From Selaginella tamariscina (taxonomy: Eukaryota; Streptophyta; Lycopodiopsida; Selaginellales; Selaginellaceae), in NCBI GenBank assembly GCA_003024785.1, contig PUQB01000023.1:49508-113507 (forward strand): a stretch of DNA of 64,000 bases, read 5' to 3'. A program made the translations under genes and the position numbers. Positions 8,191-63,184 of this stretch are shown here, in pieces; the stretch's first letter is position 1, and each line of letters opens with the position of its first letter. The notes below the pieces were generated by a model. The model had not been told where the DNA came from and searched no databases. It saw only the letters and a list, made by a program, of their open reading frames with translations.

Positions 8191-8553
8191 CAACAGTTCC
8201 AGATTTCAACGTATTACGTTTAAGAGAGCAGTTATAACGACATTAGGAAGTTACGAACCAACTAGATAAGATTCAAGGAAGTTATGATAACTGAATGTAC
8301 TGGCTGGAAGTGTGGGTATAAATATATGAAGTTAGGGGTAGGAAAGCATCTCGGGGTATACTGAATATTATACTATGTTTTGACAATATATACTCTCCTC
8401 TTACTCTCACTCTTCAGTATCATACTTGATATCTACTTCTCATTTCTACTGCGTTCGGGATCCACAGTATTACTTACTATATCTATTCTCTTCTACTATC
8501 TTTGGTATCTTACTTGATTCTTTGATTACTACTGCATCGAGTGATCTGAGTAC

Positions 8554-8764
8554 TGTTATGACCATATAACGAATCAAAGAATATTCCCCAGAAAGGTATA
8601 ACCTAGAATATTCCTAAGGAGTTATACCTAGATCTAAGAGAGAATTAAGGGCACACTACTATTGGAAGCCTTTCTTGGAGAGCAGCGTGTGGAGACTAGA
8701 GACAGCTCGGGGGAGGTCGGGTGGTATTGTGAGGGTCTCTAGATTGTACGTAGGGTGCCTAACA
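8554..8764 (+). repeat. 5' LTR of element A
   Basis: Starts TGTTATGACC and ends GGTGCCTAACA. It is 211 bp, short for plant gypsy elements. It matches 13,164-13,372 with about seven differences, mostly small indels. Confidence 0.93.
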
Positions 8765-8767
8765 ATT

Positions 8768-8788
8768 TGGTATCGGAGGCAGGTTCGA
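8768..8788 (+). other. Primer binding site of element A (initiator Met tRNA type)
   Basis: The sequence TGGTATCGGAGGCAGG lies a few bases after the 5' LTR. It resembles the common plant primer site TGGTATCAGAG, complementary to the 3' end of initiator methionine tRNA, with a few mismatches. Confidence 0.7.
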
Positions 8789-8789
8789 G

Positions 8790-9849: not shown

Positions 9850-9853
9850 ATTT

Positions 9854-13119: not shown

Positions 13120-13150
13120 GTTATACTGCCCTTGAGGACAAGGACTTGCT

Positions 13151-13163
13151 AATGGGGGAGGAT
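13151..13163 (+). other. Polypurine tract of element A
   Basis: AATGGGGGAGGAT directly abuts the 3' LTR, the expected place for the plus-strand primer. Confidence 0.8.
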
Positions 13164-13372
13164 TGTTATGACCCATATAACGAATCAAGAATATTCCCCA
13201 GAAAGGTATAAGCTAGAATATTCCTAAGGAGCTATACCTAGATCTAAGAGAGAATTAAGGGCACACTATTATTGGAAGCCTTTCTTGGAGAGCAGCGTGG
13301 AGACTAGAGACAGCTCGGGGGAGGTCGGGTGGTTTGTGAGGGTCTCTAGATTGTACGTAGTGGTGCCTAACA
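13164..13372 (+). repeat. 3' LTR of element A
   Basis: Starts TGTTATGACCC and ends GTGCCTAACA, 209 bp, followed at once by the target duplication AGTAC. Confidence 0.93.
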
Positions 13373-13519
13373 AGTACTACATGCTATATCTTTTCTTCTT
13401 ACTTTCTCTATGATATCTTACTTGATTCTTTGATTCTATTTATTTCTTACTGCATCGAGATTGCAGTACTACTTGCTATATCTCTTCTCACTCCCGTTTG
13501 ACCATCTGAGGATGGTTTC

Positions 13520-21580: not shown

Positions 21581-24500
21581 TTTATTAGTTTTTTCTAATT
21601 TTTCCTTAAGCCTTATAATTTATAAATTTAAATAATTTATAACATGGAACCAACACTCATCTCTTACCATTGTAACTTTCGTAGAGAGCTTAGGAATTAT
21701 TTTGGTTGATCAATAACAATCATTACACATCCTTATATTTTAACAACTGTAATGATCTTTTCATGAGGTGTATTCAAAATGCTAATAAAAATACACCTCT
21801 CATTGTGCTCACAAAGTGCCTTCTTTTTCTCCACATATTATGGCTTATGTTATATAATTTAAGAACATATTCATATTCTTATATGCTTTTTGAGAAACTA
21901 TTTTAATTTGTCTTAACATATGTAATATCCTCCTCCCCAACCACAAACCTAACCATCCTACCTAGTCATTTATAACATAAATTTGCCTAGGTAATTTTTA
22001 AGCACCAAATTTCATCTTTGTTTTCAACTTCTCTTGTTCTTCCCACATACCCATACTGCCATATATCTCAGCCATGAGTATATAAGCAGATGCCTTCTTC
22101 TGATTCAAATTTACTAAAGACTTAAAAGCTATTATCCCTATCTCAACATTTTTCCATTTGCGACAAGCATTCAAGAGTGTCATCCAAGTCACTGCATCAG
22201 GATCACAAGGCATTTTCTGTAAACAAAGCAATAGCCTCGCCCAATTTATTTGTACAACCCAAAAGGTCAACCATACAATTGTAATGCATCATAGTAGGGG
22301 TAGTCCATACCGCATAGGCATTAGTTCAAAGTATTCCCATGCCTTTTCTACCAAACTTGCATGACTACAACATCCAAGTAAGCACAAAAATGTGATAGCA
22401 TTTGGTCGAAAATCTTGATCTTGCATTACCTTAAAAAGACTAAATACAGAATCGATGTTCCCAAACCTACCAAAACCTATTAAAAGTGCATTCCATGTTG
22501 ATACATCCCTTACTTGTGGATGCAAATCAAATACCTCACGAGCCTCTTCCATGCTCCCACATTTTGCATAGAAGTCTATTAAAGATGTTACTACATGAGC
22601 ATCAAATTCCCTTATCTTTGAATGGAAACTTCGTCCAATGGCCAAGGCCCCATTCAAACCACAAGCCTTGAGAGCAGCAACATATGTCACACAATTGGGT
22701 GCACATCTGCACTCCTCTTTCATTCTGAAGAAGCAATCCAATGCAACAAAACCCTGCCTATCATCCACATAGCCCAGAATCATAGCATTCCAAGACACTA
22801 CGTCTGGCTCCTGGATACTGTCAAACACGCTCCTAGCATCTACCATGCTACACACTTGACATACATGTCTATGAGCGTGTTCTGAACAATCTGATTCATA
22901 TGGCAACCAATCTTTAAATGTATCTCTCTACCTCGTTCCAAACATTTTTTCTTTCCACTTTCATCTCCATATGCTGCCAGTGACGTGCAGGCCTTGAGGG
23001 CAGCAACATATGTCACGGAATCAGGCGCACATCTTCTCTTGTCCTTCATTCTCGAAAACAAGTCCAGGGCAACAAGACCTTGTGCAATGTCTGCATATCC
23101 CAGGATCACAGCATTCCAGGACACCACGTCCGGCTCCTGGATACTGTCAAACACACTCCTAGCGTCTACCATACTGCCACACTTGGCATACATGTCTATG
23201 AGCGTGGTCTGCACGAACTTATTCATATGGCAACCAATCTCCAAATGTATCTCTCTACCTCGTTCCAGACACCTTTTCTTTCCACTTTCATCTCCATCTG
23301 CTGCCAGTGACGTGCAAGCCTTGAGGCAGCAAGATAAGTCACGCCATTGGGCGCACATCTGCAGTCCTCTTTCATTCTGGAAAAGCAGTCCAGGGCAACA
23401 AGACCCTGCCTATCATCCGCATAGCCCAGAATCATAGCATTCCAAGACACCACGTCTGGCTCCTGGATACTGTCAAAAACGCTCATAGCGTCCACCATGC
23501 TGCCACACTTGGCATACATGTCTATGAGCGTGTTCTGCACGAACTGATTCATATGGCAACCAATCTCCAAATGTATCTCTCTACCTCGTTCCAAACACCT
23601 TTTCTTTCCACTTTCATCTCCATCTGCTGCCAGTGATGTGCAGGCCTTGAGGGCAGCAATATATGTCACGGAATCGTGTGCACATCTTCTATCGTCCTTC
23701 ATCCTCGAAAACAAGTCCAGGGCAGCAAGACCTTGTGCAATGTCTGCATATCCCAGGATCACAGCATTCCAGGACACCACGTCCGGCTCCTGGATACTGT
23801 CAAACACACTCCTAGCGTCTACCATGCTGCCACACTTGGCATACATGTCTATGAGCGTGGTCTGCACGAACTTATTCATATGGCAACCAATCTGCAAATG
23901 TATCTCTCTACCTCGTTCCAGACACCTTTTCTTTCCACTTTCATCTCCATCTGTTGCCAGTGACATACATGCCTTGAGGGCAGCAAGATAAGTCACGCAA
24001 GTGGGCACACGTCTGCAGTCCTCTTTCATTCTGGAAAAGTGGTCCAGGGCAACAAGACCCTGCCCATCGTCTGCATATCCCAGGATCACAGCATTCCAGG
24101 ACACCACGTCCGGCTCCTGGATATTGTCAAACACGCTCCCAGCGTTTACCATGCTGCCGCACTTGGCGTACATGTTGATGAGTGTTGCTGCAACATACAT
24201 GTTTGACTCGTTCCCAGTTTCCACTGCCTTTGCATGGACTCGTTTCCCCTTGTGCAAGTCTTTTTTCCTGGTACAGGACTTTAAGTCAGAAAGGAGATCA
24301 TGGACATGAACATGTCTGATTGCTGATTGTTTCCGCTTCGTTTTCCCTGTCCTTGTCAAGGCATCAACTGCTTGGAAGTTGTTGACCATCCATTCCAAAT
24401 AGCCATTATCAACCTGATTGATGTGCTTGCCTCTGTGCGTTCGAAAATCAAACACATCTCGCCGCATGGAGTACACTCGAAACGACCCATGTCTATGGCA

Positions 24501-25020
24501 GGTACAGCCAATTCCCTCACATCGCACCTGTGGCCATGCATTATCGCGACTACTCCAGGTGTTCATACTGTATCCCCAAGAAAGGATGCTATCAGGTGCA
24601 CCGCAAGGGTAAGGCCGTCTACAGAACCGAAGGGCAGGAGATTCGTCTAGTTGAACTTCTCAGGCTGTATTCCACAAGTTCTCGTGGCTGACCACATGGA
24701 CGTCATATGATGCATATATATGCACTAATACACAACCAACAATATATACTTTCTCATACAACATAGTTGTCCGACACTAAGGCCAATCACTACGAGTTTG
24801 CAAAGCAGGGAATATACCTGTATGGAGGCCTGGACGTCAGAGGACTGCCGGTTTGCGCATATCAGCAATGCAGCTAGCTGCCTTCATGAATATCTTGAAG
24901 AATCCTGATGCATGAAATAAGTTTTGTGATATAGTTGCGAAATTTCTCTCCCATGCTATCGTCATTCTTGTTGTAGGTATCCAGATGATTTTGCCCTTGT
25001 CTCAGCTTCAAATCAACCAT
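21580..25020 (-). repeat. Dispersed segmental duplication, copy 2 (carries a PPR gene)
   Basis: Matches 2150-5065 in the same orientation and 38,900-42,080 inverted, including AT-rich downstream flank (about 21,640-21,990) and upstream flank (24,830-25,010). Confidence 0.75.
21998..24566 (-). pseudogene. PLS-class pentatricopeptide repeat protein, copy 2, frameshifted
   Basis: The first frame (24,566-23,223, 447 codons, real ATG start) has an entry region (CTRKKDLHKGKRVHAKAVE), then modules of 109 residues: P motif VVSWNAVILGYAD, L motif VTYIAALKACTSLAADGDES with an extra GDESGKKRC-type insertion, S motif TLIDMYAKCGSMVDARSVFD. It resumes in other frames at 23,358, 22,906 and 22,270 and ends with an E-like tail (ASAYILMAEIYGSMGMWEEQ) at 21,998. 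Module starts at 23,864, 23,537, 23,211 and 22,884 are spaced 327, 326 and 327 bp, so the 326 step is a frameshift. Three or four small indels could be decay or assembly error. No DYW domain, so any editing role would need a partner supplying it. Confidence 0.8.
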
Positions 25021-30475: not shown

Positions 30476-30518
30476 GCCCAAAGAAAGAAACATAACTTAA
30501 AATGGGTCTCGGCAAAAA

Positions 30519-30690
30519 GGAGGCTTTAGCTCAGGAGGCTTCGTACTATTCTAGTATATTTGCGGATATTCCAGGTTTATTCTAGCATATTCCAAAATTC
30601 TCAAGAATATTTTTTGATATAAGTTTTTTTAATATGCCGACTCGCTTAATATTTGCCGACTGGCCTAATATTTGCCAACCAACAAATAAA
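30519..30690 (+). repeat. Left inverted terminal region of the composite element
   Basis: GGAGGCTTTAGCTCAGGAGG, then AT-rich DNA with TATTCTAG repeats and two TTTGCCGACTGG/TTTGCCAACC motifs. It is inverted relative to 38,230-38,325. Confidence 0.6.
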
Positions 30691-30779
30691 TCATTTAAAT
30701 TTTTAGAAATTTTTTTGAATACTTTATAAAAAAGTTCAATAAGTTACTATTCAAACAAAGCATTTTTATGTATACCATT

Positions 30780-33700
30780 TATCCTTGTAGCACCAGTGGG
30801 TCATGAACTCTGCTGCAATTCACGAGCAAACAGTGGACCTCCATCTCACTGAGCGATCGCCTTTGTAGAAAGTATGTGATGTCCGAGTTCAAGCCAAACA
30901 CACAGCTGTAAACAAGTACATGTGTACACATGGGCTCCAACTTTTGCTCTTCTGAAAGGTAGAACAACTGCATGTAGAATAAGTATTGATAGTCATCTTT
31001 GCAGAGTCATTTCCTACCGACACAACGAAAGCCTCCTTCCATCCTCAAACTATTACTTCAACATTTCTCACTCGACCTAAAAATGTCTTGGCCTTGTGGA
31101 AACTCTTCTCTTATTCCTTAGACATTTTTGTTGGAGTCTGACCATGCGTCCTTTGAAAGGTGGAATTGTTGTAGATCTAGCTCCACGTGGTGGTGATGGT
31201 GTTTTGTCCTTCTGACCCTCATCTACTCTTCCTGTCGTCCCTTATAAACCTTCCAGAACAAAGCCTGCATCCTGTAGTTCTCTGACCTCCTCACTTGTCA
31301 CGTTTTCCTTGAGCACAGGCCAAACCGTTGGTGGTGTTGGAATTCTTGACTGAAGAATTTTCCGTTTGGGCGTAAAACACCCTAATCTTTTGGACAAACC
31401 ACATCATCTGTTGTACATACTCCTCATTCCCCAAGGCATCACTGTACATTCATTTTCCATAGAATCCTAGTGCTGGCACTCTGCTTGGATAACCGATTGG
31501 TTTTCCACACAGAGCAATTCCTTCCTGATTCATCCCCAAACACTTAACCTTATTGATGCTCCAATTCATCTGATGGCCCACTCTGTTTGTGCAATCTCTC
31601 TCTCCAAAACCTCTTTGAACCTTAACCTCTTTCTCCTATTGTTTTGGACCACCGCTCTGTGTACTTACATCATGTCTGTGTGAACGTCAAGCATCAACTG
31701 TTCTATTCCTGTGACTGTTCTCTTGACAGTTTACACTCGAACGTTAGTGGTACTCATGAACTCCGGGCTGGTCAAGTGTTCCTTGTCTTCCACCAGATTG
31801 ATAATTGTTGATAAGATACACTTTTCCCTCAGAGAGTTTGCGTTGCACTCGTTTCAACAGAGTTTCCTTCGAAGGACCTGACCCTGTATACCTCCCTTCT
31901 ATTGCCACTTTCACCTTCGCACTCTGCATAACTGCATCGGTGAGGTCTAACATTGTCCCTCTAGTAGTGGTACTCTTTTGGCCAATCTTGCTCTTCTTGC
32001 TCTTGCGTGAATCACTTCAGCATTGTTTGTAGTTGGAACGCTCGCGAGTCCTTCTTCTTCTGTCACGTCTCCCAGTTCTGCCATGGAGATGTGGTCCTCA
32101 TGCCTGATCCACCAAGACAGCCATGTCTTCAAAGCACGAATGTTTGACGCTCGTCCTTCCCAAAAAACTCGAGAATTGCTAGTTGTTCTTTCTTAGATTG
32201 TTCATTCAGTGCTGCAGGCCAGGCACAGCAAGCTTCATGTGTTCTTTGCGATGTTCTTCTGCGATCCATTTCTTTGTCACCTGACGCACGGATTGCATAA
32301 AGTGAAACAGACAGCTTCTTTCCCTCCCTTTCATCTTTTCTCCGTTGTTGAATACTTGGGCAAGGCTATCCATATCGCTCCAGCCTCATCCGACATGAAA
32401 CCAGCAAAGTTGACATTCTCCAAACCCTGTTTTTACAAACCTCTAGCATTGTGTTCAAGAACTTCAGCACTGCAACATTATCTTCGCGGCACATATCTGC
32501 GTAAGCTATAGTCACCATGGATCTGACACTGTAAGAGAGCATTAGATAACAAAGATTAGAAAGTGTTATGAAGAGTTCTACAACTTACAATGGGTCATAA
32601 AGGTGTATTCCAATTGTCGCCAGTCTGGTATATGGTGCGTGTGGTCCAGAACAACCCATTGATCATGAAGGTCTCCTCCACTTTGACACCTTCTGATGTA
32701 GTCAACTCCTGAACCCGGTCCCTCAACTGTCATTTTGAAGATCAGAGGCTGCTCCTCAGCACCATGCAGTTCCATCCCTGGAACATGTATGACGTGAATG
32801 AAAGGTATTGGCAACTTTGTCTTCCAGAAGACCCTCGTAACCCTCTCTAAAGTGTGTCTCCTTCTGTCTTGATTGTGTAATCCAGTCCCGAGTCCTAAAG
32901 AAAGGTCACGTCAGTGTGTAGATCTAAAGAAAAATACCTTCGATGGTTTGTAAGAGGTTCAAGTTTTGAGAGTAAACCAGTGTACGAGACTTCTCCTCTT
33001 CCTTGAAAAGTTCTTCAAAGATGAGCTCACGTGCAGCTTGAAACTCAATCACTCGTTGATTGGTTCGCGGACTGCTCTTTACCACGTTGCTGACACTAGC
33101 TCTGGCACGCTGAACGTTTGAAGCTGACACTGAGGGGCTGACTGGATGCTGATGAACACCTCTGTGAATGAACAACCTTGTAAAAGAAATGTCAGAATGT
33201 AGTACACATAAGCCGACAAGTGTGCACTAGCAATGGCTCCTCTCCACAATGCTTACATTTCATGCCTTTTACTTTGCCTGACTCAGTTGTCTTTGCCTTC
33301 TCCACAGCACCCTTGAAGTGACATTCATTTGCTTTCTTCTCAAAAGCCAAGTAGGGGCAGTAGGATTGATGCATTTGAGATGTCCGACACATGAACTTCG
33401 ACTGACTCGCGGAACATGCCAGTGTGTTGTGCTCGGTGTGTCCAATGGTAGCAGCCATCCTTGCGATTCATCCCCAAGTACTTCTCTGTGCTTTCTTTCT
33501 TTGGAGGAAGTTCAAATGACATTTCCATTGTATATCTCGGTAGTTCAGAGACTCGTTTAACTTCAGACGAACCAATGAGATCCTTCCCTATCCTACATTT
33601 GTCTGCTCTTAGAAGACACACCAGCATGGATTCCTCACGCTCCTTTGTCCAACCTGAACAACGGGCCCTTTGCCGGGCACAATGTGTAAAAGACAAATGG

Positions 33701-33966
33701 TTTGATGCATTGCCTTCTGGTAACAACTCCACATCTTCTCCAGAACTCGCAGAAACTGACATCAATTGAACCACATGTATACTGAACCAACAAGGAATGT
33801 TGAAAGCAATGAAGATCATGTTCAAACACAAAAGCATTTCCATCTTCATCGACTGGGAAATCTTTGTCAATGCCTTCATAGGTAACTCTGGCCATGACAA
33901 CGCAAGGAGAAAGCTCGGTGGTTTAGGAAAGCAAAGCAAAAGATTAAACACACTCTCGTTCGCCAA
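30780..33966 (-). pseudogene. Transposase-like protein (MULE-like), spliced, frame-broken
   Basis: The start MARVTYEGIDKDF lies at 33,895. Next come a Cys/His-rich segment with GMKCKHCGEEPLLVHTC (to about 33,195), a helical segment (VIEFQAARELIFEELFKEEE), then the putative catalytic part: VFWKTKLPIPFIHVIHVPG, WVVLDHTHHIPDWRQLEYTF, a GTAAGT...CTTACAG intron (about 32,585-32,528), SMVTIAYADMCREDNVAVLK, and in shifted frames a segment resembling FAGFMSDEAGAIW. The tail includes ALKTWLSWWIRHEDHISMA and GRYTGSGPSKETLLKRVQRK. Other introns are likely near 32,935-32,895 and 33,220-33,165. Acidic residues in LDHTH and MSDEA would fit a DDE-type enzyme, but the family call is tentative. Several frameshifts prevent expression as written. 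Confidence 0.5.
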
Positions 33967-34359
33967 AAAAAATTATAATCGTTGATAATAAACGTGAACA
34001 CACTTTTGTATATAATTAATTACGCTGCCCAGCTCACAGTGTTCTTAATGCTGTCCTCTCTAGTATCACCATGTAATTTAATTATTACCTTTTATGATTT
34101 GAAATATCTTCACCTTTACCAATTATTCACATATTTTAATAAACCCTAAATTTTAATGTCACATTTATTCCGTAGGGTTTACTGTTTTCATTGCGTAGGG
34201 TTTTTTGGTAGATAGGGTTTACTGTTTCCATTGCGGCTAGGGTTTTTTCTATCTCAGATCTGATATCTGAAATCTCCTCCAAGGGGCCTGAGAGGACGGC
34301 CCATCCATTTCAGTCGATTCATGTAGCGCCCAAGTAAACCAATCAGATTTCTGTGTGAT

Positions 34360-34930
34360 TTAGATTGTCGGCACCATCCCTCAGTCAAGCCACAAGGTTT
34401 GTTCAATTTCTTTTTTTTATTTGCGGCTCAAGTATCCATATCACAATGTGTTTTTTTTATGCCAGAGTTAAAGGGTCTTCCCATTTGTGCCATGTGAGAG
34501 AGACGGCACCATCCTGGCTTAGTCAACAGCCACAAGGTCTATTCAATTTCTTTTTTTTTATTTCGGCTCAAGTATCATATCACAATGTTTTTTTTTTTAT
34601 GCAGAGTTAAAGGGTCTTCCCATTTGTGCCATTGAGAGAGACACACCATCCTGCTCAGTCAACAGCCACAAGGTTTTTCAATTTCTTTATTTTTTGATTT
34701 GCGCTCAAGTATCCATATCACAATGTTTTTTTTTCAGAGTTAAAGGGTCTTCCCATTTGTGCCGTCTGAGAGGGACGGCACCATCTTGCTCAGTCGGCAT
34801 ACTCATACATCATCTCATTTGTGCCGTCTGAGAGGGTCGGCACCAACCGTCTCAGTCGGCAGGTTTTGCTCATCTACTTTTGTGCCGACTGAGAGGGTCG
34901 GCACCATCTAGCTTGAGTCGGCAGCCACAA
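34360..34930. repeat. Tandem repeat array with short dyads between two divergent genes
   Basis: Three copies of a roughly 130-bp unit contain CAGCCACAAGGT, TTCAATTTCTTTTTTT, CAAGTATCCATATCACAATG and AGAGTTAAAGGGTCTTCCC. They are followed by shorter units. Each contains a hairpin-capable core, GTGCCGTCTGAGAGGG then CGGCAC. The array occupies the space between the divergent transposase-like and methyltransferase genes and may contain both promoters. Confidence 0.75.
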
Positions 34931-35008
34931 GGTTAGTCATCTTTTTTTTGTTTTTCCTTTTGTTCTCGAATCAATTGACTTGTGTGTTTGCTTTCCAGAG
35001 TTTGCAAA

Positions 35009-38000
35009 ATGGTGAGAGCTTCAAAACGTCTACAAGAGATTGTGCCTGATGAAGAGCCACGGAAGAGAAGATATCGAAGCACAAGCGAGGAAAGAGAGGA
35101 GAACCATCTAATGTAGCAAAGGAGGATCCTCCAGTGACTCAGCCAAGTAGTACCAGTTGAGCAGGAGCAGCCTCCATCAACCATCACAGATTTCCCGGAG
35201 AGCTCATCGCAGTTGCCTCCTTCATCGCTGAGGTTGCAGTCCTGAAAGCAAGTGCAGATGACAGAGGCAGTTGAAGCTCTTTCTTCTTTTAGCAGGACGA
35301 CTTGGAGGAGGCAGTCAGCAAAAAGAGAGGCCGTGGGAAAGCTGATCCAAAAGGCAAGAAGGCGAAGAGCGATAAGGAGCCGAAGGAGTTATACAGCATA
35401 CCGGCCAGCCTGCATTTGGAGAGCTCAGCAACCTGCTCGACAAAATTACTATCAAGGGACTTGGTGATCCTCCTGATGTGCCAATCTGTAGAATGCATTC
35501 AACGAGGTGGTTCGACGAGTGAACCCAGGGGACTTGGACAGCTGGTGTCATCATTGAAGAAGGCTGGTTATCTACGCAACACGGCCTTGTTCATTCTGTC
35601 CATCGGAGATCCACTCACTGCTGAGGAGCTATCGAGCTGTTGAAGGACACGGTTCAGTACGAGCAGCACCGGTCTTTCGAGCAAGCTCTTACTCAGCCGA
35701 GTACAAACAGTGGGCTTCGAGGCTATCAAACGGAAGTTCAGCTGCTGGGACGGGAACCATAGGCTACAGGCTTTGCAGAAGCTCTACCGAGAGGATGCAG
35801 AGGACAACCAACGATGGGCTATTCGTGTTCGATTAGTTTCATCTCCACGAGAACCTCGACAATCTTCAACTGTTTCATGTTCCAATCGATAAATGTGAGT
35901 ATTTTCTTTTCTTTTTGTTAAGAGTCTAGACTTACAGTTTCAATGAACAGATCTTCAGCAACATCTGTGGAAACAACACTACCACATATTCTCCTCACTG
36001 TAAAGGCGTCTGCACTAGTACTGAAGGAACTCAGAAAATCCTCGAGTCACTCACGGAGGTTGATCGTCTTGAGGTGCGAAGTGGAAGGAGAGTGCAACAG
36101 GAAAGCGGCTTGGCATCCTCTTCCGAACCTGATCTGCGCAAAGATTCTTTTCAAGGTAACCTTCGGTTTGATTGATAGGAAAGAAGTTTTTAACTTATTC
36201 TATGTGCAGAACGAGATTGCGATGATCTCGATAGAGCAGTCACCAGTGCTAAAGGCAATCCACAGCTTGAATGAACCTGTAGTACAAGAAGCATGACAAG
36301 CGTATGCACAAGTTCCTCTCTATCATAGACCCAGAGTTGGGGGAGGAGTGGTTCCAGAAGGTGACAAACATCTCTCATAAGCAGTGTCATGATGGGCATT
36401 GAGAAGCTGTATGCGATGTCAAAGGCAAGATTTCAAACATGCTGCACTCCGATACTTGAACAAGCTCACTCGTCTCGAATCCAAGGCAGAACAACAGACA
36501 CTTGGGCTACCAGGCATGCAGGACAAAGAGTGGATCAAGTGGTTCACCTTGGACTTGTATTTGGAAGGCTGTGCACGAGGAAGCCATTCAGATCCTTAAG
36601 GGACTGCGAGAGGATGGTGAAGAAGTTGGAACGGATGTCGACTTCATGAGCTGGTTTGACGAGATGCGAACTCGGAGCAAGTGCCTGGTCTTTCAGCCCT
36701 TCCATGACTGCATACGGTTCACTTATTCGATGGAGCCGAATGAGTTTTGGAGCATGAGGAGTCTGCGCGTTGGATGATATGGAGGTAAGCTTTTCATTGT
36801 TACTAACTAACTTTGTTACAGGTTCATACTAGCGAAGAAATGGCACCGTCTCAGATGATGAAGCTGTGGACAGATCATACAAGCGAGCCTCACATGTGGT
36901 CGAAGAGCAGAGGAGCTCTAACACCATTCGAACGCGAGCATGTTCCATTTTGGCTCAATGTCGCAGCAGCCACCAGCTTGGGAGAGCTCATTATTCGACA
37001 TGCATGCCAATGATCTTCCAGCATTGTTTGGGAGCCAGAGAAGTAGAGGCTATCAAGAAGAGCAAGATGAAGAAGACATGCGGAAGACATCTACACCTGC
37101 AAAGGCATCAAGAGTGGGACCAAGCTCTTCTACAGCACCTCCGCCAGCAATTGACTTTACACTTAATGAGGTGCAGCCACTTGTAGCTGGTTTGGACATC
37201 AAGACGACCTAATGACCTTCATCCCGACATTGGCTACATCCCGTGGATCCTACGACCTGGCTGTGTGCGATATGGAGGAGATGAGCAGGTCTTTCTTCGA
37301 GCGGGTGCTTCCCAACAAGGTGTACACCAAGCTCTAACAACATGTTGAGAAACTACACACAGCTGAGTCACAAACGTTGTTCCAGGAAGTGCAGGTGAAT
37401 ACGGCTTCAACCTTGTCATCCTCGACTTGCCCAATGAGCTTGTATATGGAGGTGCTAGCATCAACAAGGACATTGTGCAGCTAGATCTAGTGAAGTTTGA
37501 GGAGGCCTTGCAGTTCAATGGAATGCACTTGGCAGCGAGTGGTTTCATGGTCGTCTTTGCGACTTCTCCTTTGGTTTCGGCAGTAATTCAGGCTACGGTA
37601 ATCAACCTGGAGGTTGCAGGGACTTACAGCGTCTACTATACATGAGGCTGGGATACTGTGACAAAATTAAGGTATGTTAGCTATTCATGTTCAAGTTTAA
37701 CTTGGTCTATGTGGCAGATAACTTGTTGATTCTCTTGGTGCTGCAAAGTTGAGAAGAAGTCGAAGAAGCGAAACCCTCTGGCGTTGATGAACACATCCTT
37801 ATCGATACTGCCGACCGTTTTCAAGAAGCTTAGTAAGGAAGTACTTTGCTTTGTCTATCCTAATGGAAGTTTGTACAGATGATGATTCAACCGAAGAGTG
37901 TTCGACTCATGCAGCTTTTGATCGAGTGTCTTAGTAGACCTGACCTTGTCTGGGATATTGGTTCCGGAACTGGATCATCGTTGTTAGCTACCGTTGAGCT

Positions 38001-38160
38001 CGAAAGGAATATTATAGGAACCAGAAGAGTTTCAAACTCTCTTGGTTGTAACAAACAAGCTCGCAGAGAACATTTGACTAGAGGAAATACCTACTCAGAC
38101 ATCACCACATCCAAGCCTAGCTGGTGGTTTGAGAATAAGATGAAAAGAAACTTTAGCTAG
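35009..38160 (+). pseudogene. ParB-like domain plus beta-class DNA amino-methyltransferase, spliced, frame-broken
   Basis: The probable start is the ATG at 35,009 (MVRASKRLQEIVPDEEPRKR), just after an acceptor-like CTTTCCAGAG. A basic low-complexity region follows (SKKRGRGKADPKGKKAKSDK). The ParB-like segment has MHSTRWFDE, VNPGDLDSW, KKAGYLRNTALFI and CWDGNHRLQALQKLYRED (near 35,743-35,800). A middle region includes LGLPGMQDKEWIKWFTLDLY. The catalytic part has EYGFNLVILDLPNELVYGG (near 37,400-37,450, motif IV position), then VRLMQLLIECLSRPDLVWD and IGSGTGSSLLATVELERNII (motif I, 37,954 on), the beta-class order. It stops at 38,158. Introns are likely at about 35,893-35,938, 36,153-36,209, 36,784-36,820 and 37,672-37,730. 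Expected activity: N6-adenine or N4-cytosine methylation of DNA. DLPN in place of DPPY or DLPY may mean loss of activity. Confidence 0.6.
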
Positions 38161-38229
38161 TGTGTATTGAGTAATAAATTAAGCTAATATAAAAAAGAAT
38201 AAGTTAGAAATACAACGGTTTTATTAGGA

Positions 38230-38325
38230 AAAAATTTTGCCAACTAAGGCCAATACCGCCAACACAAAAGAATATTCTAAAATATTCTAGAATATTCAAG
38301 CCCAGGCCTCCTGCCCCAAGCCTCC
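38230..38325 (-). repeat. Right inverted terminal region of the composite element
   Basis: Reverse complement begins GGAGGCTTGGGGCAGGAGG and continues with GAATATTCTAGAATATT and TTGGCGGTATTGGCC. It pairs with 30,519-30,690. Confidence 0.6.
38270..38297. promoter_or_regulatory. Heat-shock-element-like repeat at the right transposon end
   Basis: Alternating GAA and TTC pentamers: GAATATTC, TAAAATATTC, then TAGAATATTC. Heat shock factors bind inverted nGAAn arrays of this form. A second similar run lies at 38,853-38,880, outside the inferred end. Function is inferred from the motif only. Confidence 0.45.
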
Positions 38326-38329
38326 AAAA

Positions 38330-38900
38330 TGGTGGCACTCACTTAAAATCTCCTACATGGCTAACTATAATCCTAACACTACATAGAACAACTCATTCAA
38401 AATGTTGTCTCCATATATATATGTTCCTCAACTAACACAATGTTTGTTGTAATAGGAATTACAAATTGAACCAACGTTCACCACAAACTCAAAAACTATG
38501 ACTTTTACAATTAACACATTATGTGTTACTAGATGAACTTTACAAAATCATTATTGGTTCACTGCAAACCCAATTTGGATATGCATTTTATGATAAACAC
38601 ATAGTGTGTTGCTATAAAAGCCTTATAGACTCATCAAACGTTTGTGGTGAACCCAAATTGGGTTCATGGTGAACCTTTGATGAGTTCATAAGGCTCCTTT
38701 GCATTTTCCTTGAGTTCGTGATGAACAATGCTAACTTTAAGTTGAGTTTGCTGCCCTAGTTGACTTTGACCGTTGTTAAGTCCTACTAATCAACCTACAC
38801 CTCACCTTGTAAACTAGCAATGCTCCATTTTATTTAGGCCTCAATTTGTAAGATATTCTAGAATATTCTAGGGAATATTCAGTATATTATGGAATAAGCC
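38330..38900. other. Spacer with dyads and GAATATTC motifs, no gene
   Basis: Contains repeated GGTTCACTGCAAACCC and GTGGTGAACCC/GGGTTCATGGTG dyads (38,540-38,690) and an ATATTCTAGAATATTC run at 38,853. It could be a small non-autonomous element next to the composite transposon. No coding potential seen. Confidence 0.4.
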
Positions 38901-41900
38901 AGGATATTTTCCACATAGCTTGCAGCACCATCGATGATAAACCAGCTATCTCAGTCGACGTCAAAGGCGTCTATGGTTGAAGCCTGAGAAGTCGAAGTCG
39001 ACAAATCTCCTGCCCTTGGTTATGTAGACGGCCTTACCCTTGCGCTGCGCCTGATAGAAGAGTTTTGCATCCTTTCTTGAAGGTTTGAGTATGAGCACAT
39101 GGAATAGTCGCGATAATCGGTACTTTGCATGGCCACAGGTGCGATGTGAGGGAATTGGCAGTACCTGAGAACTGGCCTTAGGCCTGGGTCGTTTCGAGTG
39201 TACTCCATGCGGCGAGATGTGTTTGATTTTGGAAAGCACATAGGCAAGCACACCAATCAGGTTGATAATGGCTATTTGGAATGGATGGTCAACAATTTCC
39301 AAACAGTTGATGCCGGGAAAATGGAGCGGCAGCAATCAGCAATCAGAAATGTTCATGTCCATGATCTCCTTTCTGACTTGAAGTCCTGTACCAGGAAAAA
39401 AACCTGCACAAGGGGAAACGAGTGCATGCAAAGGCAGTGGAAACTGAGAACGAGTCGAACATGTATGTTGCAGCAACACTCATCAACATGTACGCCAAGT
39501 GCGGCAGCATGGTAGACGCTCGGACAGTGTTTGACAATATCCAGGAGCCGGACATGGTGTCCTGGACTGCTGTGATCCTGGGGTATGCGGACACTGCACA
39601 AGGCCTTGCTGCCCTGGACTTGTTTTTGAGGATGAAGGACGAGTGCAGATGTGCGCCTGACTCCACGACTTATGTTGCTGCCCTCAAGGCCTGCACGTCG
39701 CTGGCAGCATATGGAGATAAGAAAAGGTGTCTGGAGCGAGGTAGAGAGATACATTTGGAGATTGGTTGCCTTATGAATCAATTTGTGCAGAACACGCTCA
39801 TAGACATGTATGCCAAGTGTGGCAGCATGGTAGACGCTAGGAGCGTGTTTGACAGCATTCAGGAGCCGGACGTGGTGTCTTGGACTGCTCTGATCCTGGG
39901 CTATGCGGACGATGGGCAGGGTCTTGTTGCCCTGGACTGCTTTTCCCGAATGAAAGAGGAGTGCAGGTGTGTGCCCAATTGCGTGACTTATCTTGCTGCC
40001 CTCAAGGCCTGCACGTCACTTGGAGCAGATGGAAATGAAAGTGGAAAGAAAAGGTGTTTGGAACGAGGTAGAGAGATACATCTAGAGATTGGTTGCCATA
40101 GGAATCAGTTTGTGCAGAACACGCTCATAGACATGTATGCCAAGTGCGGCAGCATGGTAGACGCTCGTACAATGTTTGACAGTATCCAGGAGCCGGATGT
40201 GGTGTCTTGGAATGTTGTGATCCTGGGATATGCGGATAGTACACAAGGTCTTGCTGCCCTGGACTTGTTTTCGAGGATGAAGGACGAGAGAAGATGTGCA
40301 CCTGATTCTGTGACATATGTTGCTGCTCTCAAGGCCTGCACGTCACTGGCAGCAGATGGAGATGAAACTGGAAAGAAAAGATGTCTGGAACGAGGTAGAG
40401 AAATACATTTGGAGATTGATTGCCATATGAATCAGTTTGTGCAGAACACGCTCATAGACATGTATGCCAAGTGTGGCAGCATGGTAGACGCTAGGAGCGT
40501 GTTTGACAATATCCAAGAGCCGGACGTGGTGTCATGGACTGCTCTGATCCTAGGCTATGCGACGATGGGCAAGCTCTTGTTGCCTTGGACTGCTTCTCCA
40601 GAATGAAAAGGAGTGCATATGTGTGCCCAATTCCACGACTTATGTTGCTGCCCTCAAGGCCTGCACGTCACTGGCAGCAGATGGAGATGAAAGTGGAAAG
40701 AAAAAGTGCTTGGAACGAGGTAGAGAGATACATTTGGAGATTGGTTGCCATATGAATCAGTTTGTGCAGAACACGCTCATAGACATGTATGTCAAGTGTG
40801 GCAGCATGGTAGATGCTAGGAGCGTGTTTGACAGTATCCAGGAGCCAAATGTGGTGTCTTGGACTGCTCTGATCGTGGGCTATGTGGACAATGGGCAGAG
40901 TCTTGTTGCCTTGGACTGCTTCTCTAGAATGAAAGAGGAGTGTAAATGTGTGCCCAATTGTGTGACATATGTTGCTGCTCTCAAGGCGTGTTGTTTGAAT
41001 GGGGCCTTGGGCCTTGGACGGAGGTTCCATTCAGAGATAAGTGAATTTGATGTTCATATAGTAACATCTTTGGTAACTTATATGCGAAATGTGGGAACAT
41101 GCAAGAGGCTCGTGAAGTATTTGATTTGCATCCACAAGCAAGGGATGTATCAACATGGAATGCTCTTTTAATAGGTTATGGTAGATTTGGGAACATTAGT
41201 TTTGTCTTTAGTCTTTTTGAGGTAATGCAAAATCATAATTTTCGGCCAAATGCTATTACATTTTTGTGCATGCTTATTTGTTGTAACCATGCAGGTCTGA
41301 TTGAAAAGGCATGGGATTATTTTGAGGTAATGCCTACGTTGTATGGACTCACCCCTACTATAATGCATTACACTTGCATGATTGACCTTTTGGGTCGCAC
41401 AAATAAATTAGAGGAGGCTATTACTTTATTACAAAAAATGCCTTGCTATCCTGATGCAGTTACTTGGATGACACTCTTAGGTGCTTGTCATAAATGGGAG
41501 AATGTTGAGATAGGGAATGGCTTTTAAGTCTTTAGTGGATTTAAATCAAAAGAAAGCATCTGCTTATATACTTATGGCTAAGATATATGGTAGTAAGGGT
41601 ATGTGGGAGGAGCAACAGAGGGTGTTAAAAACAAGAATGAAGTCTAATATTTGAAAATTATTTAAGTAAGTTTATGTTATGGATGAGTAAGATGGGTAGA
41701 ATGATTAGATTTGTGATTAAGGAATAAGATCTTATATATTTAAAGACAAATTGAAATAGTTTCTCAAAAGTATGCAAGAACATATAAATATAACATAAGT
41801 CATTCCATAATTAATTATGAAAAGAAAAAAGCACTATGTGGACACAATGAGATGTATGATATTGTTTATAACATCTTGAATACACATCACAGAGAGATCA

Positions 41901-42080
41901 TTAAAGGTGACAATGTATAACAATTAACATCAGTCAACAAGATGATTTTTATTTGAGAGAGTTTAAAAGTAATAAATTTTATATTATGAAAATGTCAATT
42001 GTTCATGTGGAGATTATTGGTAATAAAATTTATAAATTATAAAATTTAAGAAAAATTAGTAAACTTTGCCCACCACCATT
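38900..42080 (+). repeat. Dispersed segmental duplication, copy 3 (carries a PPR gene)
   Basis: Inverted relative to copies 1 and 2. Similarity starts upstream of the gene near 38,920 (GCAGCACCATCGATGATAA region, as at 4,670-4,690 inverted) and continues through about 420 bp of AT-rich DNA after the gene. Confidence 0.75.
39091..41654 (+). pseudogene. PLS-class pentatricopeptide repeat protein, copy 3, frameshifted
   Basis: The ATG at 39,091 corresponds to the start of copy 2. A deleted A in a poly-A run near 39,400 breaks the entry region. The main frame (39,422-40,606, 394 codons) has entry HAKAVETENESNMYVAATLI, then four 109-residue P-L-S modules. Landmark GTGCAGAACACG recurs at 39,785, 40,112, 40,439 and 40,764: spacings 327, 327 and 325, the last one frame-breaking near 40,558. 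It continues in other frames through AREVFDLHPQARDVSTWNAL and MTLLGACHKWENVEIG to an E-like tail (SAYILMAKIYGSKGMWEEQQ) and a stop at 41,652. No DYW domain. With three or four indels it is the best preserved copy. Predicted organelle RNA binding. Confidence 0.8.
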
Positions 42081-43638: not shown

Positions 43639-43878
43639 TGTAAGGTTCCATGGTATATACTATGTATATACGCCACGTACACTCTGCCATGGAGGTGCCA
43701 AGTGGCATTAGGATTCATACACACTAATATGGGCATTGGCTAATCTGGGGGCTGGCTAATCTGGGCACCATGATTTACTTGGTACCAAGAGTGCTAATCC
43801 TAGCACAGACACTTAGTATAAATACCCTGTATCAGCCATACCTAATTGGAATCGTATTTAGTATTCACACCTCTCTCA
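43639..43878 (+). repeat. 5' LTR of element B
   Basis: Starts TGTAAGGTTCCATGG and ends CACCTCTCTCA. It contains a TATA box (TATAAATA at 43,817) and the internal doublet GGCTAATCTGGG. Identical to 48,247-48,486 but for about one base. Confidence 0.95.
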
Positions 43879-43879
43879 T

Positions 43880-43897
43880 TGGTGGAGATGCCGGGTA
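43880..43897 (+). other. Primer binding site of element B (alanine tRNA type)
   Basis: TGGTGGAGATGCCGGG follows the 5' LTR. It is complementary to the conserved 3' end of eukaryotic alanine tRNA (CCCGGCATCTCCACCA), a less common primer choice than initiator methionine tRNA. Confidence 0.75.
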
Positions 43898-43966
43898 GTC
43901 CTTTTTCGGCTTAGTTTTTTTTTGTGTTCCTTTTTGTCTCCCTCTTCCCTTGTGTTCTTGGTCGTG

Positions 43967-44846
43967 ATGGCAACCGAAGAAAGGTGGTTGCAGTTGTTCG
44001 ATGCACTACAATTGAGCGTGGCAAATCAGACTGCTCTGCTGCGAGAAATTCACCAAGGAATGCAGCAGAATGCTAGTATGCCGCAGAGTTCTAATCCACA
44101 CCTTTTGGGTTCCAATCCACGGGTTCGTCCAGAATTCTTCAAGGGGGAGATTGGAGCAGACGTGTACCATTGGTGGGAACATTTTCAAGGGATTGCTGAT
44201 TACCATGGATGGTCTGACTCCCAGCGGTTGCGAGAGTTCCCAACGTGTTTGCAAGGACTTGCCTTGCAATGGTACAATGGTGTCCCCGTTCTTGATCGAC
44301 AAGATTGGAACATCTTATCCCCAGCGTTTCAAGCAAGCTTTTGGTAAGCCCGAGGATTCTGCTGCAGCTTTTCGTGAGCTCCATGACTTGAAGCAAGTGT
44401 CGGGAGAGACTGTCCAACGATTCGGGATTAAGTTTCGAAACTTGGTCAATCGTGCAGATCCAAGCATGACAGAACGGGTACGTTTGGGCTTGTTATGGCC
44501 AGCTCTTCGCCCTGATTTGGCTGGCTTGGTGGAGGGCTTTGGTCCTTCGACTGTGGAGGAGGCCTTGCGGATTGCACAACGATTTGAGAACTCATTGGGG
44601 GCAGCACAACGTGTATATCCTGTATCAGCACCTATTCCTGGGACATCCGATCCTGTTCCGATGGAGGTGGGTGCTGTTCAGATGGAGGACCAGTCCTTAG
44701 GCCGCAGGAGGGGCCCAGGCCAAGCTGCTGATCGGCGTGGTCGTGGTCATGGTCGTGGTCGTGGTGGTCGTGGGCGGAACATTCAGTGCTATGAGTGCCG
44801 AGGTTGGGGACATGTTGCACGAGCATGTGCAAATCGACATCAATAG
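43967..44846 (+). CDS. Gag of element B (one frameshift)
   Basis: The ATG at 43,967 opens MATEERWLQLFDALQL and a gag domain with VYHWWEHFQGIADYHGW and LQGLALQWYNG. The frame breaks near 44,320 and continues as QAFGKPEDSAAAFRELHDLK, FGIKFRNLVNRADPSM, an RGG-like basic tract (GHGRGRGGRGR) and one CCHC knuckle, CYECRGWGHVARAC, stopping at 44,846. The RGG tract beside the knuckle should aid RNA binding. Confidence 0.85.
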
Positions 44847-44849
44847 CTG

Positions 44850-46650
44850 CCATCGAGATTGCAGAAGAAGTGGAGACTCTTCCGCAGCCGGAAAACGAGG
44901 CATAGTGCATGGGGTGTCAGAGGACCCATGCACTAAGGCACATTGCCCACCTCTGAAGAACTTGATTCCAACGCATGGTCGACACTTCCCCGAAGCACCT
45001 TTGTTCTTCCATGCTTGTGCGGGCATAGGGGTCTCGAGTGAGTTACTGGACACTGAGCGTTTTTATGTTGTGTTCTCCGGCATGGTAGAAGGAACTCCTG
45101 TTTCAGTCCTGGTGGACTCCGGATCCAGTATATATCTTCTATCAATCGATCAGTAGCGGAGTCCTTGCACTTGCACACAATACCATACCAGCTGAGCCGA
45201 ACTTTGAAGGTAGTGTTTGCTGATAAGCAGTCTTTGCTAGATCACATCGAATTGCACATGTGCCTGGTGTTAGGAGGATACCATCATCTACTTCCGTTGC
45301 GGGTGATGCCGAGCCAAGTCCATGGACATCATCCTCGGTGTCAATTGGCTTCGTGCGGTCAAGGCAAGATGTGATTTTGAAATGTGCACGTTGTCTATCC
45401 CAGGATGCCCCCCATTGCAGGCTACAGAACATGCACCGAATGGCATGGCGGCAACATTGCAGGGCATGATGGCGCCTAAGGCAGAGCCTTCTCCAGAGCA
45501 ACGAGCTAAGGACATCAAGGAGCTGTTGGCGAGGTATCCGAGCCTATTCAAACCCATTGTAGGAGATGCAAATCCCCTGTTGACTACTCGGCATCACATC
45601 CCGACTGGTACAACTCGCCCGATCAGAATGGGGCTCAGGCGACGATCTCCAAAGGAGAAGGATATCTTGAATCGTTGTGTGAGGGAGATGCTAGAGTTGA
45701 AGGTGATACGTAAGTCTCAAAGTCCATGGGCAGCAGAACCACACCTAGTTCCGAAGCCGGATGGGACTACACGTTTCACTATTGATTTCAGGCCATTGAA
45801 CGATGTTTCTGTTCCAGATTCATATCCACTACCAAGGGTGGATGATTTGGTCGATGCATTGGGGAATAGCCGGTACTTCACTATTCTTGACATGGCTTCC
45901 GGCTATTGGCAGATCCCTATGGCTCCTGAAGATGCAGCAAAGACAGCATTTCGAACACCATCCGGCTTGTACGAGTTTACAGTCATGCCATTTGGGTTGG
46001 TCGGGGCCCCAGCAACCTTCCAGCGGATGATGGATGAGCTATTGGAGGGCTTTGAAGAATTTGCACGTGCGTACATCGATGACCTTCTTATTCACTCTGC
46101 TACGTGGGAGGAGCACATTCAGCAGTTAGAGCGGGTCCTGCAGCGATTGGTGCAATACGGGCTGAAGTTGAAAGAGCAGAAGTGCAAGTTCGGATGTACC
46201 TCCTTGAAATACTTAGGATTCATCATCACGGCAGAGGGTGTGAAACCGGATCCCGAGAAGACCCTAGCTGTACGAGAATTTCCTGCTCCTGAGTCAGTGG
46301 CGGAGTTGCAGCGTTTCTTGGGAAAGGCAACATACCTAGCGAGGTTTGTTCCGCGGTTCTCAGATTTGACAGCCCCATTGCGAGGATTGTTAAAACAAGG
46401 AGCTCAGTTCCGGTGGTCCAAGAAGTGTCAGAAGGCGTTCGAGGATGTTAAGGCATTGCTAGGATCTCCACCTTTGTTGCGGTATCCGGACTTTGCCAAA
46501 TCCTTTATTCTTCGGACCGATGCTTCAGATGTCGGGTTGGGGGCCGATCTGTTGCAGGAGACTCCCAATGGTCAGCGGTACCCAATCGCTTATGCAAGTC
46601 GGAGCCTTACTGAGGCAGAGAAAAATTATTCCACCACGGACAAGGAATGT
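44850..46650 (+). CDS. Pol of element B: protease and reverse transcriptase (frameshifted)
   Basis: The protease active site VLVDSGSSIYLLS lies near 45,108-45,146. Frame changes follow near 45,145 and again before 45,322, after which MDIILGVNWLRAVKAR marks the protease end. RT motifs are [70 protein letters not shown] and the catalytic YIDDLLIHS (near 46,074). The RNase H start LRTDASDVGLGADLLQ is near 46,512. The frame is lost at about 46,655. Confidence 0.92.
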
Positions 46651-48221
46651 CTGGCACCGTATGGGCCTTTCAAAAGTTCCATGCATATCTACATGGCTCC
46701 AACACATTGTTGGAAACTGATCATGCTGCTGTCAACTCAATCATGAAGAGGAGGAATGTGACGGGACGACTTGCACGTTGGGCATTAATTTTGCAAGGGT
46801 ATCGTTTTCGGGTTGTTCATCGCCCAGGGTCTAGCATGGCGGATGTGGATGCGTTATCCCGAGCTCCTGTGGTAGTAGCAGCCCCTGTACATTGTTGCCG
46901 GATGCCCTTCCTGATCGCGTACTTCCGAGGCGGGAAGACATTGTGGAGGCTCAAAAGATGGAGCCATGGATCAGGAGGTTGCGTGAAGTCTTGAGTAGTG
47001 AGGTACCCTGCGAGGATCTTAACTTTCGCACATATGCACGATCTTTCAGACTGATGGATGACTTGCTTGTCTTTGTTGGAGACGGTTCCGAGTGTCGTGT
47101 GGTGGCACCACCAGTTTACATTAACTCCTGGTTGCAGTTCTTTCATGACAACCCGATGTCCGGACACATGGGATTCCAACGATGCCTTGAGAGGATTCGA
47201 CAGCACTTGTATTGGCCCCGATTGCGACAAGACCTACATGAGTACATTCATACGTGTCCGGAGTGTCAACGGCATAACGTGTCCACACTTCCTCCTGCAG
47301 CAACCCTGGAACCAATTCGAGTTTCTCGCCCCTTTGAGCTGGTAGCGTATGACATCATGGGACCATTCCCTGTGTCACAGTTCGGTAATCGATACATCAT
47401 TGTGTGCTCTGATTACTTGACTCGGTGGGTAGAAGTGTGTGCTTTGCCAGATGCTACAGCAACTTCCATCATCAAGTTCCTACTAGCTCAAGTGGTGTTG
47501 AGGCATGGTTGCCCCGAACGAATTTTATCGGATCAAGGACCAGGCCCAGCAGCGGAAGCAGTAGCTTTGTTGATGCGACGGTTGCAGATCCGACAATCTT
47601 TTGCCTCAGCTTATCATCCTGAGACTGATGGTTTGGTGGAGCGGTTGAACAGGACTTTCAAAGTCATGCTTGCCAAGTATGTGCGTCCTGACCATACGGA
47701 TTGGGATATGTGGCTTCCATATCTCCAATTTGCTTATGTTTCAGCCCCTCACAAGTCAACAGGGATTTCCCCATTCAAAGCTTTGTATGGTGTGAACCTG
47801 TATTGCCACCAGCAGTTGGCATTACTCCTCACGAAGCACGGTATATGGATGGGCGTATGTGGTTGGAGCATTTGAACCAAGTCCTTCCTCTGTTGTATGC
47901 TCAAGGTGGAGAACATTAGCTCGTGCACAAGAGTATCAGCGTCGGACTTACAATCAACGACATCGAATGCCACCTCAATACCAAGTGGGAGATTTGGTTC
48001 TCGTCAAGTTTCCAAGGTTAGGGGATCAAACACACGCAGCAGGGCTTCAACCACGATGGGTCGGGCCTTGGAGTGTTGAAGAACAGTTGGGAACACAGGT
48101 GTATCGCTTGAAGCGGCGTGATGGGGTTCGGGAGTCACAACATGTCGCTCATGTGTGTCGGCTATTACCGTTCCACCAACGGACACTCGTCCAAGGAGAG
48201 AAGGACCACCTTGATAGGTAG
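46650..48221 (+). CDS. Pol of element B: RNase H end and integrase (frameshifted)
   Basis: It begins with VWAFQKFHAYLHGSNTLLET and RVVHRPGSSMADVDALSRAP (RNase H end), changes frame near 46,890, and then has an HHCC finger (HDNPMSGHMGFQRCLERI to CPECQRHN), the DDE core (VAYDIMGPFPVSQFG, ERILSDQGPGPAAEA, YHPETDGLVERLNRTFK) and a C-terminal part in two further frames (EARYMDGRMWLEHLNQV; YQVGDLVLVKFPRLGDQ; VGPWSVEEQLGTQVYRLKRR). It stops at 48,219-48,221. No chromodomain is visible. Confidence 0.9.
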
Positions 48222-48233
48222 AAGCCATGTCTT

Positions 48234-48246
48234 GAGAGGGGAATGA
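48234..48246 (+). other. Polypurine tract of element B
   Basis: GAGAGGGGAATGA directly precedes the 3' LTR. Confidence 0.8.
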
Positions 48247-48486
48247 TGTAAGGTTCCATGGTATATACTATGTATATACGCCACGTACACTCTGCCATGG
48301 AGGTGCCAAGTGGCATTAGGATTCATACACACTAATATGGGCATTGGCTAATCTGGGGGCTGGCTAATCTGGGCACCATGATTTACTTGGTACCAAGAGT
48401 GCTAATCCTAGCACAGACACTTAGTATAAATACCCTGTATCAGCCATACCTAATTAGAATCGTATTTAGTATTCACACCTCTCTCA
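48247..48486 (+). repeat. 3' LTR of element B
   Basis: TGTAAGG...CTCTCTCA, 240 bp, followed by CACT. Confidence 0.95.
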
Positions 48487-63115: not shown

Positions 63116-63184
63116 ATAATAGTGTCAGTCTCGCAATAATAAGCATTGTGTTTGGGTTCTTGAGAAGCAATTCTACTCAAGATC

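Follow-up and report, generated by a model that had tools for sequence, protein, structure and literature searches.

Positions 30504-38340 of a 64,000-nt stretch of the Selaginella tamariscina genome (contig PUQB01000023.1; this whole stretch is here called the window, and coordinates refer to it) constitute a single two-gene Mutator-like element (MULE), which moves as one unit. Opposite its transposase gene, the element carries an accessory gene in which a ParB-like motif precedes an amino-methyltransferase-type domain, and short half-sites are arrayed in the spacer between the two genes. The accessory protein most likely recognises these half-sites and acts on the promoter and the ends of the element itself, and purifying selection has acted on its gene as on that of the transposase.

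Results

The termini of the element were set at 30504 and 38340 by comparison of copies and by a perfect 9-bp target-site duplication, ACTTAAAAT, which lies on either side (30495-30503 and, identical to it, 38341-38349; unstranded). The element starts with GGGTCTCGG... at 30504 and finishes with ...GGCACTC at 38340, and its terminal inverted repeats are imperfect, ~40 bp long and common to the copies: GGGTCTCGGCAAAAAGGAGGCTTTAGCTCAGGAGGCTTCG... at 30504-30546 on the plus strand, with a left limit found in independent copies, and ...GCCCAGGCCTCCTGCCCCAAGCCTCCAAAATGGTGGCACTC at 38298-38340 on the minus strand. A first-pass annotation, made from the sequence alone, had proposed a single DNA transposon bounded by inverted ends at 30519 and 38325. 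The sequences on which it relied, GGAGGCTT...CAGGAGGC, are indeed present at both ends, but the true limits lie ~15 bp further out, and the ends 30519/38325 are rejected in favour of those given by the copies and the target-site duplication. The single transposon itself is confirmed by the same ends in independent copies together with 9-bp duplications.

In genome searches, which cover the 300.7 Mb assembly, a 601-bp stretch of the plus-strand gene, used as probe, found at least 40 places (the window at 100%, the other 39 listed at 93-97%), and a 601-bp transposase probe also found at least 40 (others listed at 98-99%). We examined 26 other copies, 20 obtained with the plus-strand-gene probe and six with the transposase probe; all six of the latter share the element's ends and contain the methyltransferase gene as well, as expected of one element. 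Both genes and both ends (the equivalents of 30504 and 38340) are found in 17 of the 26, a count that includes L030, which lacks the greater part of the accessory gene's first exon. L009 and L033, which belong to these 17, have the same flanks as the window copy and L018 and are therefore segmental duplicates. Partial and rearranged copies also occur: each of the remaining nine shows truncation or rearrangement or runs into the end of its contig, with L011, L012, L013 and L017 forming one cluster, and a further place, L036 (G000:C516:757500-761500), has a transposase piece joined in inverted orientation to part of the methyltransferase gene. When the flanks of 16 full copies (15 fetched copies plus the window) were compared, they matched at 8 or more of 9 positions in ten copies, eight of which have an exact 9-bp duplication; the remaining six comprise one exact 8-bp duplication, one match at 9/10, two at 7/9 and two without a duplication. 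None of 240 mismatched flank pairs, used as a control, reached 8/9.

The two genes are divergent, as had been proposed, with the transposase on the minus strand (30779-33895, read from ~33895 to ~30779) and the ParB-like/methyltransferase gene, consisting of several exons, on the plus strand (~35009-38160). In the majority sequence of the family, the transposase is open over stretches of 346, 110 and 607 codons. DDE transposases of MULEs have a CxxH motif between the second D and the E, a SWIM-type zinc finger is common in this superfamily without being universal, and the target-site duplication measures 8-11 bp, usually 9. We assign the element to the MULEs on these grounds: the first D lies in WVVLDHTH (32635-32658), the second in GFMSDEAGA (32376-32402), CxxH in SCLFH (32302-32316) and E in TTNNAEVIH (32007-32033), followed by a C-terminal SWIM-type CxC...CxH at ~30915-30975, all on the minus strand, and the duplication has the usual length. 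The D, D, C, H and E residues are retained in 18-20 of 21 copies and CxC...CxH in 18 of 21. An N-terminal Cys/His finger ends in IHRGVHQHP (33143-33169, minus strand). The transposase is not matched by the Pfam MULE model, and its SWIM-type finger remains under the cut-off of PF04434 (E 0.003-0.015). Two database relatives (P0001 and P0002) have GFM.DEA..NW...ERSCLFHWEQS in common with the transposase, and both terminate in a SWIM-like finger, likewise under the Pfam cut-off.

The accessory protein amounts to ~1000 aa summed over its exons. The motif order read by the first-pass annotation was recovered on the plus strand: DGNHRL (35749-35766), then DLPN...YGG (37424-37453), then DIGSGTGSS (37954-37980, in the context VWDIGSGTGSS). 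Each gene of the window copy is readable only across several frames, and exons of sister copies were used for the profile searches. Joined exons from L025 and L018 match the methyltransferase profile PF01555 (E 5.4e-9; 36.7 bits at a cut-off of 26.7), the PHROG DNA-methyltransferase family phrog_67 (E 6e-11) and the solved structure of MboIIA (E 2e-4), and the frameshifted window sequence reaches 19.4 against PF01555, under the cut-off. An amino-methyltransferase-type domain in beta order is thereby borne out; the Pfam match is limited to the C-terminal part that binds S-adenosylmethionine (SAM; profile positions 165-219), and the beta-class order, in which motif IV precedes motif X/I near the C-terminus, was seen by eye. 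The motif IV region, FNLVILDLPNELVYGG (37406-37453, plus strand), contains the tetrapeptide DLPN, whose L, P and N are retained in all 20 readable copies and whose D is retained in 17 of them; DLPN is also found in L035, the one copy examined of a second family, described below. The canonical catalytic motif IV is [DNS]PP[YFW]. Since DLPN departs from it, we class the protein as a domain relative with at most putative activity. Two database searches and a search of viral contigs returned no homologs of the accessory protein.

The N-terminal part of the accessory protein contains DGNHRL, and motifs of the DG.HR type form the nucleotide site of the ParB/sulfiredoxin superfamily. Among 22 copies scored, N, H, R and L are retained in all, D in 21 and G in 17, and the motif is found in both families. 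Our label ParB-like is accordingly meant at the level of the DGNHR(L) motif. The ParB domain proposed earlier found no significant match in any profile search: PF18763 aligned with the window piece at E 0.096 and with no other copy, PDB searches gave no ParB match, and an hhalign comparison with four canonical ParB segments scored 11.7 (P 0.36), a value that no fewer than 8 of 30 column shuffles surpassed. Phage searches by tblastn with the ParB-like part gave one chance-level match each. Three phage regions were examined for a ParB fusion and set aside, their annotated methylases (~211-260 aa) being too short.

A half-site, AGTCGGCA/TGCCGACT, is common to both families and arrayed between the two genes; in the window family, it is also found near the element ends and is absent elsewhere in the element. 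The 16 full copies together contain 110 exact TGCCGACT in their spacers (19.3 kb), 20 in their first and last 300 bp (9.6 kb) and none in the remaining 97.9 kb, counts that are not independent because the copies are related. By copy, half-sites occur near the left end in 10 of 16 and near the right end in 8 of 16. In the window copy, the intergenic array (34290-34930) combines half-sites AGTCGGCA with inverted repeats GTGCCGNCTGAGAGGGNCGGCAC at 34487 (3 mismatches), 34759, 34821 and 34882, and each copy of the family has 3-6 such inverted repeats in its spacer (up to 3 mismatches allowed). Its terminal half-sites are confined to the left end, where two exact TGCCGACT (30635-30642 and 30654-30661, plus strand) lie with repeats of the TATTCTAG/GAATATTC type in the left subterminal region (30545-30662); the right subterminal repeats of the GAATATTC/TATTCTAG type (38266-38300) are without an exact half-site. 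The spacer of L035 holds 14 copies (11 exact) of a 16-bp palindrome, AGTCGGCATGCCGACT, mostly spaced every 39-40 bp, and 200 shuffles of L035 yielded no palindrome. Independent support for a shared site comes from the overlap in 8-mers between the L035 spacer and the window family: the only 8-mers that reach five occurrences in the former and two per copy in the latter are AGTCGGCA and CAGTCGGC, which overlap each other. Across the whole genome, the palindrome occurs at 1142 places and its reversed control at none, and 6 of the 8 array contigs listed have a PF01555 match among the 150 listed, all six at 3.15-3.18 kb.

These 150 places derive from a genome search with PF01555, which gave 739 first-look candidates; all 150 that were scored exceed the cut-off, and by score and frame length most of them resemble another, very uniform family. 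One copy of this second MULE family was examined, L035 (G000:C571:471000-480900), in which the transposase is read one way and the ParB-like/methyltransferase gene the opposite way, as in the window element. Its accessory gene has open stretches of 320, 219, 339 and 106 codons, and a natural exon of L035 scores 39.6 bits against PF01555. By blastn, the DNA of L035 can be aligned with the window element in two parts only, the transposase and the central portion of the accessory gene (65-66%). Protein identity between the families is 57% in the ParB-like part, 50% in the motif IV part and 75% in the motif I part, with 0.85, 0.87 and 0.83 synonymous and 0.27, 0.33 and 0.19 amino-acid-changing differences per site, respectively; for the N-terminal part of the transposase, the corresponding values are 0.76 and 0.29. 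By these counts, synonymous sites are saturated between the two families, and selection has preserved the accessory gene with roughly the stringency seen in the transposase.

Selection within the family was assessed with 22 unlinked methyltransferase sequences (5 of 27 dropped as duplicates) and 21 transposase sequences (5 of 26 dropped), in a test that ignores linkage between variants. For the methyltransferase gene, the ratio of amino-acid-changing to synonymous variation is near neutral for private variants (~0.93), falls to 0.75 for those shared by at least two copies and reaches ~0.49 for those present in at least 4 of 22 (S=41 synonymous, N=41 amino-acid-changing, z -3.3), and the corresponding transposase ratios are 0.77, 0.68 and 0.27. 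In the motif I stretch, which is part of the last exon segment, variants in at least four copies (S=1, N=4, 1 stop) are too few to judge; those in at least two copies comprise S=13, N=19 and 2 stops. The introns noted by the first-pass annotation are visible as GT...AG-type interruptions in the window copy and in the family majority, with the exception of 36155-36209, which may not be an intron because the family majority reads through it in frame. Its view that introns indicate long residence in a eukaryote is reasonable, and stronger evidence comes from the two families, each of which kept the gene while synonymous sites diverged to saturation.

Across the 16 copies, transitions relative to the family majority are more frequent at CG (6.6%) and CHG (4.0%) sites than at CHH (1.2%) and A/T sites (0.5%). 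CG transitions exceed those at A/T sites in every region of the element, and the rates peak at both ends, where the alignment is also noisiest. This is the signature of 5-methylcytosine (5mC) at CG and CHG, by which the copies were eventually silenced. In the window copy, numerous one-base indels disrupt the two genes, and one-base deletions are very numerous across all 16 copies, suggesting residual long-read error. Full copies have 24-79 one-base indels each against 56-355 substitutions; the two correlate (r 0.65, 16 copies), and a linear fit leaves ~28 one-base indels at zero substitutions. The Ty3-type and pentatricopeptide repeat (PPR) genes of the window are likewise frameshifted. Residual long-read errors on top of true decay are therefore likely, and the frameshifts do not prove the window copy dead; a conclusion of decay drawn from frameshifts was withdrawn, given that indels follow substitutions only partly and that other genes of the window are affected too.

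The element lies among other repeats and genes. Three paralogous PPR gene regions (2140-4795, 21636-24832 and 38908-42066), mostly ~83-85% identical, support the plant-like host assumed earlier; the third, immediately to the right of the MULE, is inverted relative to the others. AT-rich GAATATTC/TATTCTAG repeats are found at 30545-30620, at 38266-38300 and, beyond the right end, at 38846-38871, and similar AT-rich repeats flank both genes of L035 on their outer sides. A Ty3-type long terminal repeat retrotransposon occupies 8466-13435, with protease and reverse transcriptase detected by Pfam, a frameshifted pol and repeats (8548-8765 and 13158-13373) of 95% identity. Another, young Ty3-type element at 43639-48486 has flanking 240-bp direct repeats that are 99.6% identical and encloses reverse transcriptase and RNase H, and the integrase part of a further Ty3-type element lies at 63177-63893 on the minus strand.

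Discussion

We favour, at a rough probability of 0.55, a two-gene MULE whose accessory protein binds the half-sites and targets the promoter and the ends of its own element. Separate families share both the gene order and the site, and the placement of the motifs resembles that of the targets of the anti-silencing protein VANC. The half-sites would be bound by the accessory protein through its ParB-like part or, with lower probability, by the transposase, and the bound protein would load onto the promoter array and the element ends and there methylate adenine at N6 or cytosine at N4, or else serve as a binding clamp. In this way, the bidirectional promoter and the ends could stay usable, either through anti-silencing or through the timing of transposition, and self-marking by the element is plausible. 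Protection would be temporary: once the source falls silent, copies would become 5mC-methylated and decay. The ordinary silencing of relic copies suggests the same, that is, protection that is temporary or restricted to active copies. A more elaborate form of this idea, modelled on ParB/parS nucleation, would have the TGCCGACT array in the bidirectional promoter load the ParB-like/amino-methyltransferase protein, with N4-methylcytosine (4mC) or N6-methyladenine (6mA) placed on promoter and ends and a self-made epigenetic island arising in a genome that silences by 5mC; we offer it tentatively and would not bet on it.

Several observations weigh against self-targeting by a ParB-like methyltransferase. 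ParB homology is not significant by Pfam, PHROGs, PDB or hhalign, and motif IV reads DLPN in both families, without the aromatic residue of [DNS]PP[YFW]. Transitions at CG and CHG sites exceed those at A/T sites by ~13-fold and ~8-fold, respectively. Exact half-sites are found near both ends in only 5 of 16 copies, and a role of the array in serving the transposase or a host factor is just as conceivable. When only variants in four or more copies are counted, the last exon segment of the methyltransferase gene shows no constraint (S=2, N=12, 1 stop), and the gene as a whole has two shared stop variants.

Other explanations draw on the same evidence. The departure of motif IV from the canonical pattern, retained in both families, would suit a protein whose methyltransferase fold is dead or altered and which acts purely as a sequence-specific binder, a functional analogue of VANC, which relies likewise on closely packed short motifs outside coding sequence (PMC5735166). 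We consider this possible yet doubtful. The SAM-binding part is the best conserved between the families (75% identity, pN 0.19), which suggests that cofactor binding still matters. The arrays may instead be promoter elements bound by the transposase or by a host factor, with the accessory gene acting elsewhere or on RNA. MULE transposases bind terminal sequences, and half-sites do occur near the ends of many copies; the palindrome array, however, looks like a site for clamp loading and accompanies the accessory gene in the 6 of 8 listed cases in which the two could be paired, though the transposase accompanies it too, and we lean away from this explanation.

The half-sites near the ends (left 10 of 16, right 8 of 16), besides those in the promoter, and the constraint on the accessory gene, which equals that on the transposase, are also compatible with control of transposition rather than anti-silencing, whereby ends and array would be methylated or occupied and the transposase would act only on unmethylated, hemimethylated or newly replicated DNA. 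Dam methylation exerts such control on bacterial IS10 and Tn5. Most half-sites, however, lie in the promoter spacer (110 versus 20 at the ends), and we judge this variant rather unlikely. MULEs often capture genes, and all copies scored for both genes are frameshifted relative to the family majority, as a Pack-MULE-like passenger without function might be. Against such a chance capture stand the exons that are open in the family majority, purifying selection within and between families and the same arrangement in two families; the between-family divergence, with saturated synonymous sites and 0.19-0.33 amino-acid changes per site, leads us to reject it as highly improbable.

Several known systems resemble parts of this arrangement. 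The comparisons below draw on the accessible portions of the cited articles. In phages and prophages, proteins with a ParB-CTPase fold are fused to N6_N4 methyltransferases and enriched on mobile elements (PMC12704722); the same two domain types are thus joined in one protein, albeit in prokaryotes, and the main text of that article contains neither 'transpos' nor 'plant'. DNA-modifying enzymes are also encoded by eukaryotic retrotransposons (cytosine methyltransferases; PMC5890265) and by fungal DNA transposons (TET/JBP; PMC12730594), but with other chemistry and in other element types. MuDR and other MULE clades share with the Selaginella element the 9-bp duplication, the SWIM finger and a second gene that is often antisense (PMC6446971). 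Genes and motifs reported for other clades are PMD, DUF, SET, FAR1, ovarian tumour or of unknown kind, and the words 'methyltransferase' and 'ParB' are absent from the main text of this survey, as they are from that of a 2026 review of plant gene capture (PMC13317346).

The closest parallel comes from algae. Genes combining ParB-like and methyltransferase parts have been published for transposons of brown, green and red algae, including a 1104-aa protein of a Sola1 transposon in the brown alga Ectocarpus, for which self-marking was proposed (PMC12477816). A ParB-methyltransferase gene within a transposon, as envisaged by the first-pass annotation, is supported here with regard to the methyltransferase domain and the element, but the combination is not unprecedented. 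As in the algal case, a large protein with a ParB-like part (here at motif level) followed by an amino-methyltransferase is encoded on the strand opposite the transposase; there, the transposase belongs to the Sola1 superfamily and the host is a brown alga, whereas the Selaginella element is a MULE. The algal account, in its accessible part, is silent on arrays of half-sites and on tests of copies or of selection. It is the one direct precedent found in a literature search that left most subscription papers and Repbase outside, where a plant case may exist.

The VANDAL elements of Arabidopsis likewise combine a MULE with an accessory protein, VANC, and carry dense arrays of short motifs in non-coding sequence and in terminal parts that vary from family to family (PMC5735166). 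The arrays in the non-coding regions of the window family and L035 are similar to these VANC targets, while their half-site, unlike the VANDAL motifs, is common to two diverged families; in the accessible text, VANC is described without a methyltransferase or ParB-like domain. Whether 6mA or 4mC has a genuine writer and role in plant nuclear DNA is disputed. The MULE presented here provides a candidate writer that is under selection, is borne by a high-copy transposon with hundreds of candidate places in one genome, and comes with a defined candidate target site, which makes this question directly testable. It extends the accessory-gene theme of algal transposons to MULEs of a land plant, adds a cis-acting side in the form of shared half-site arrays, unmentioned in the accessible parts of the literature compared here, and may represent a parallel to VANC anti-silencing by other means.

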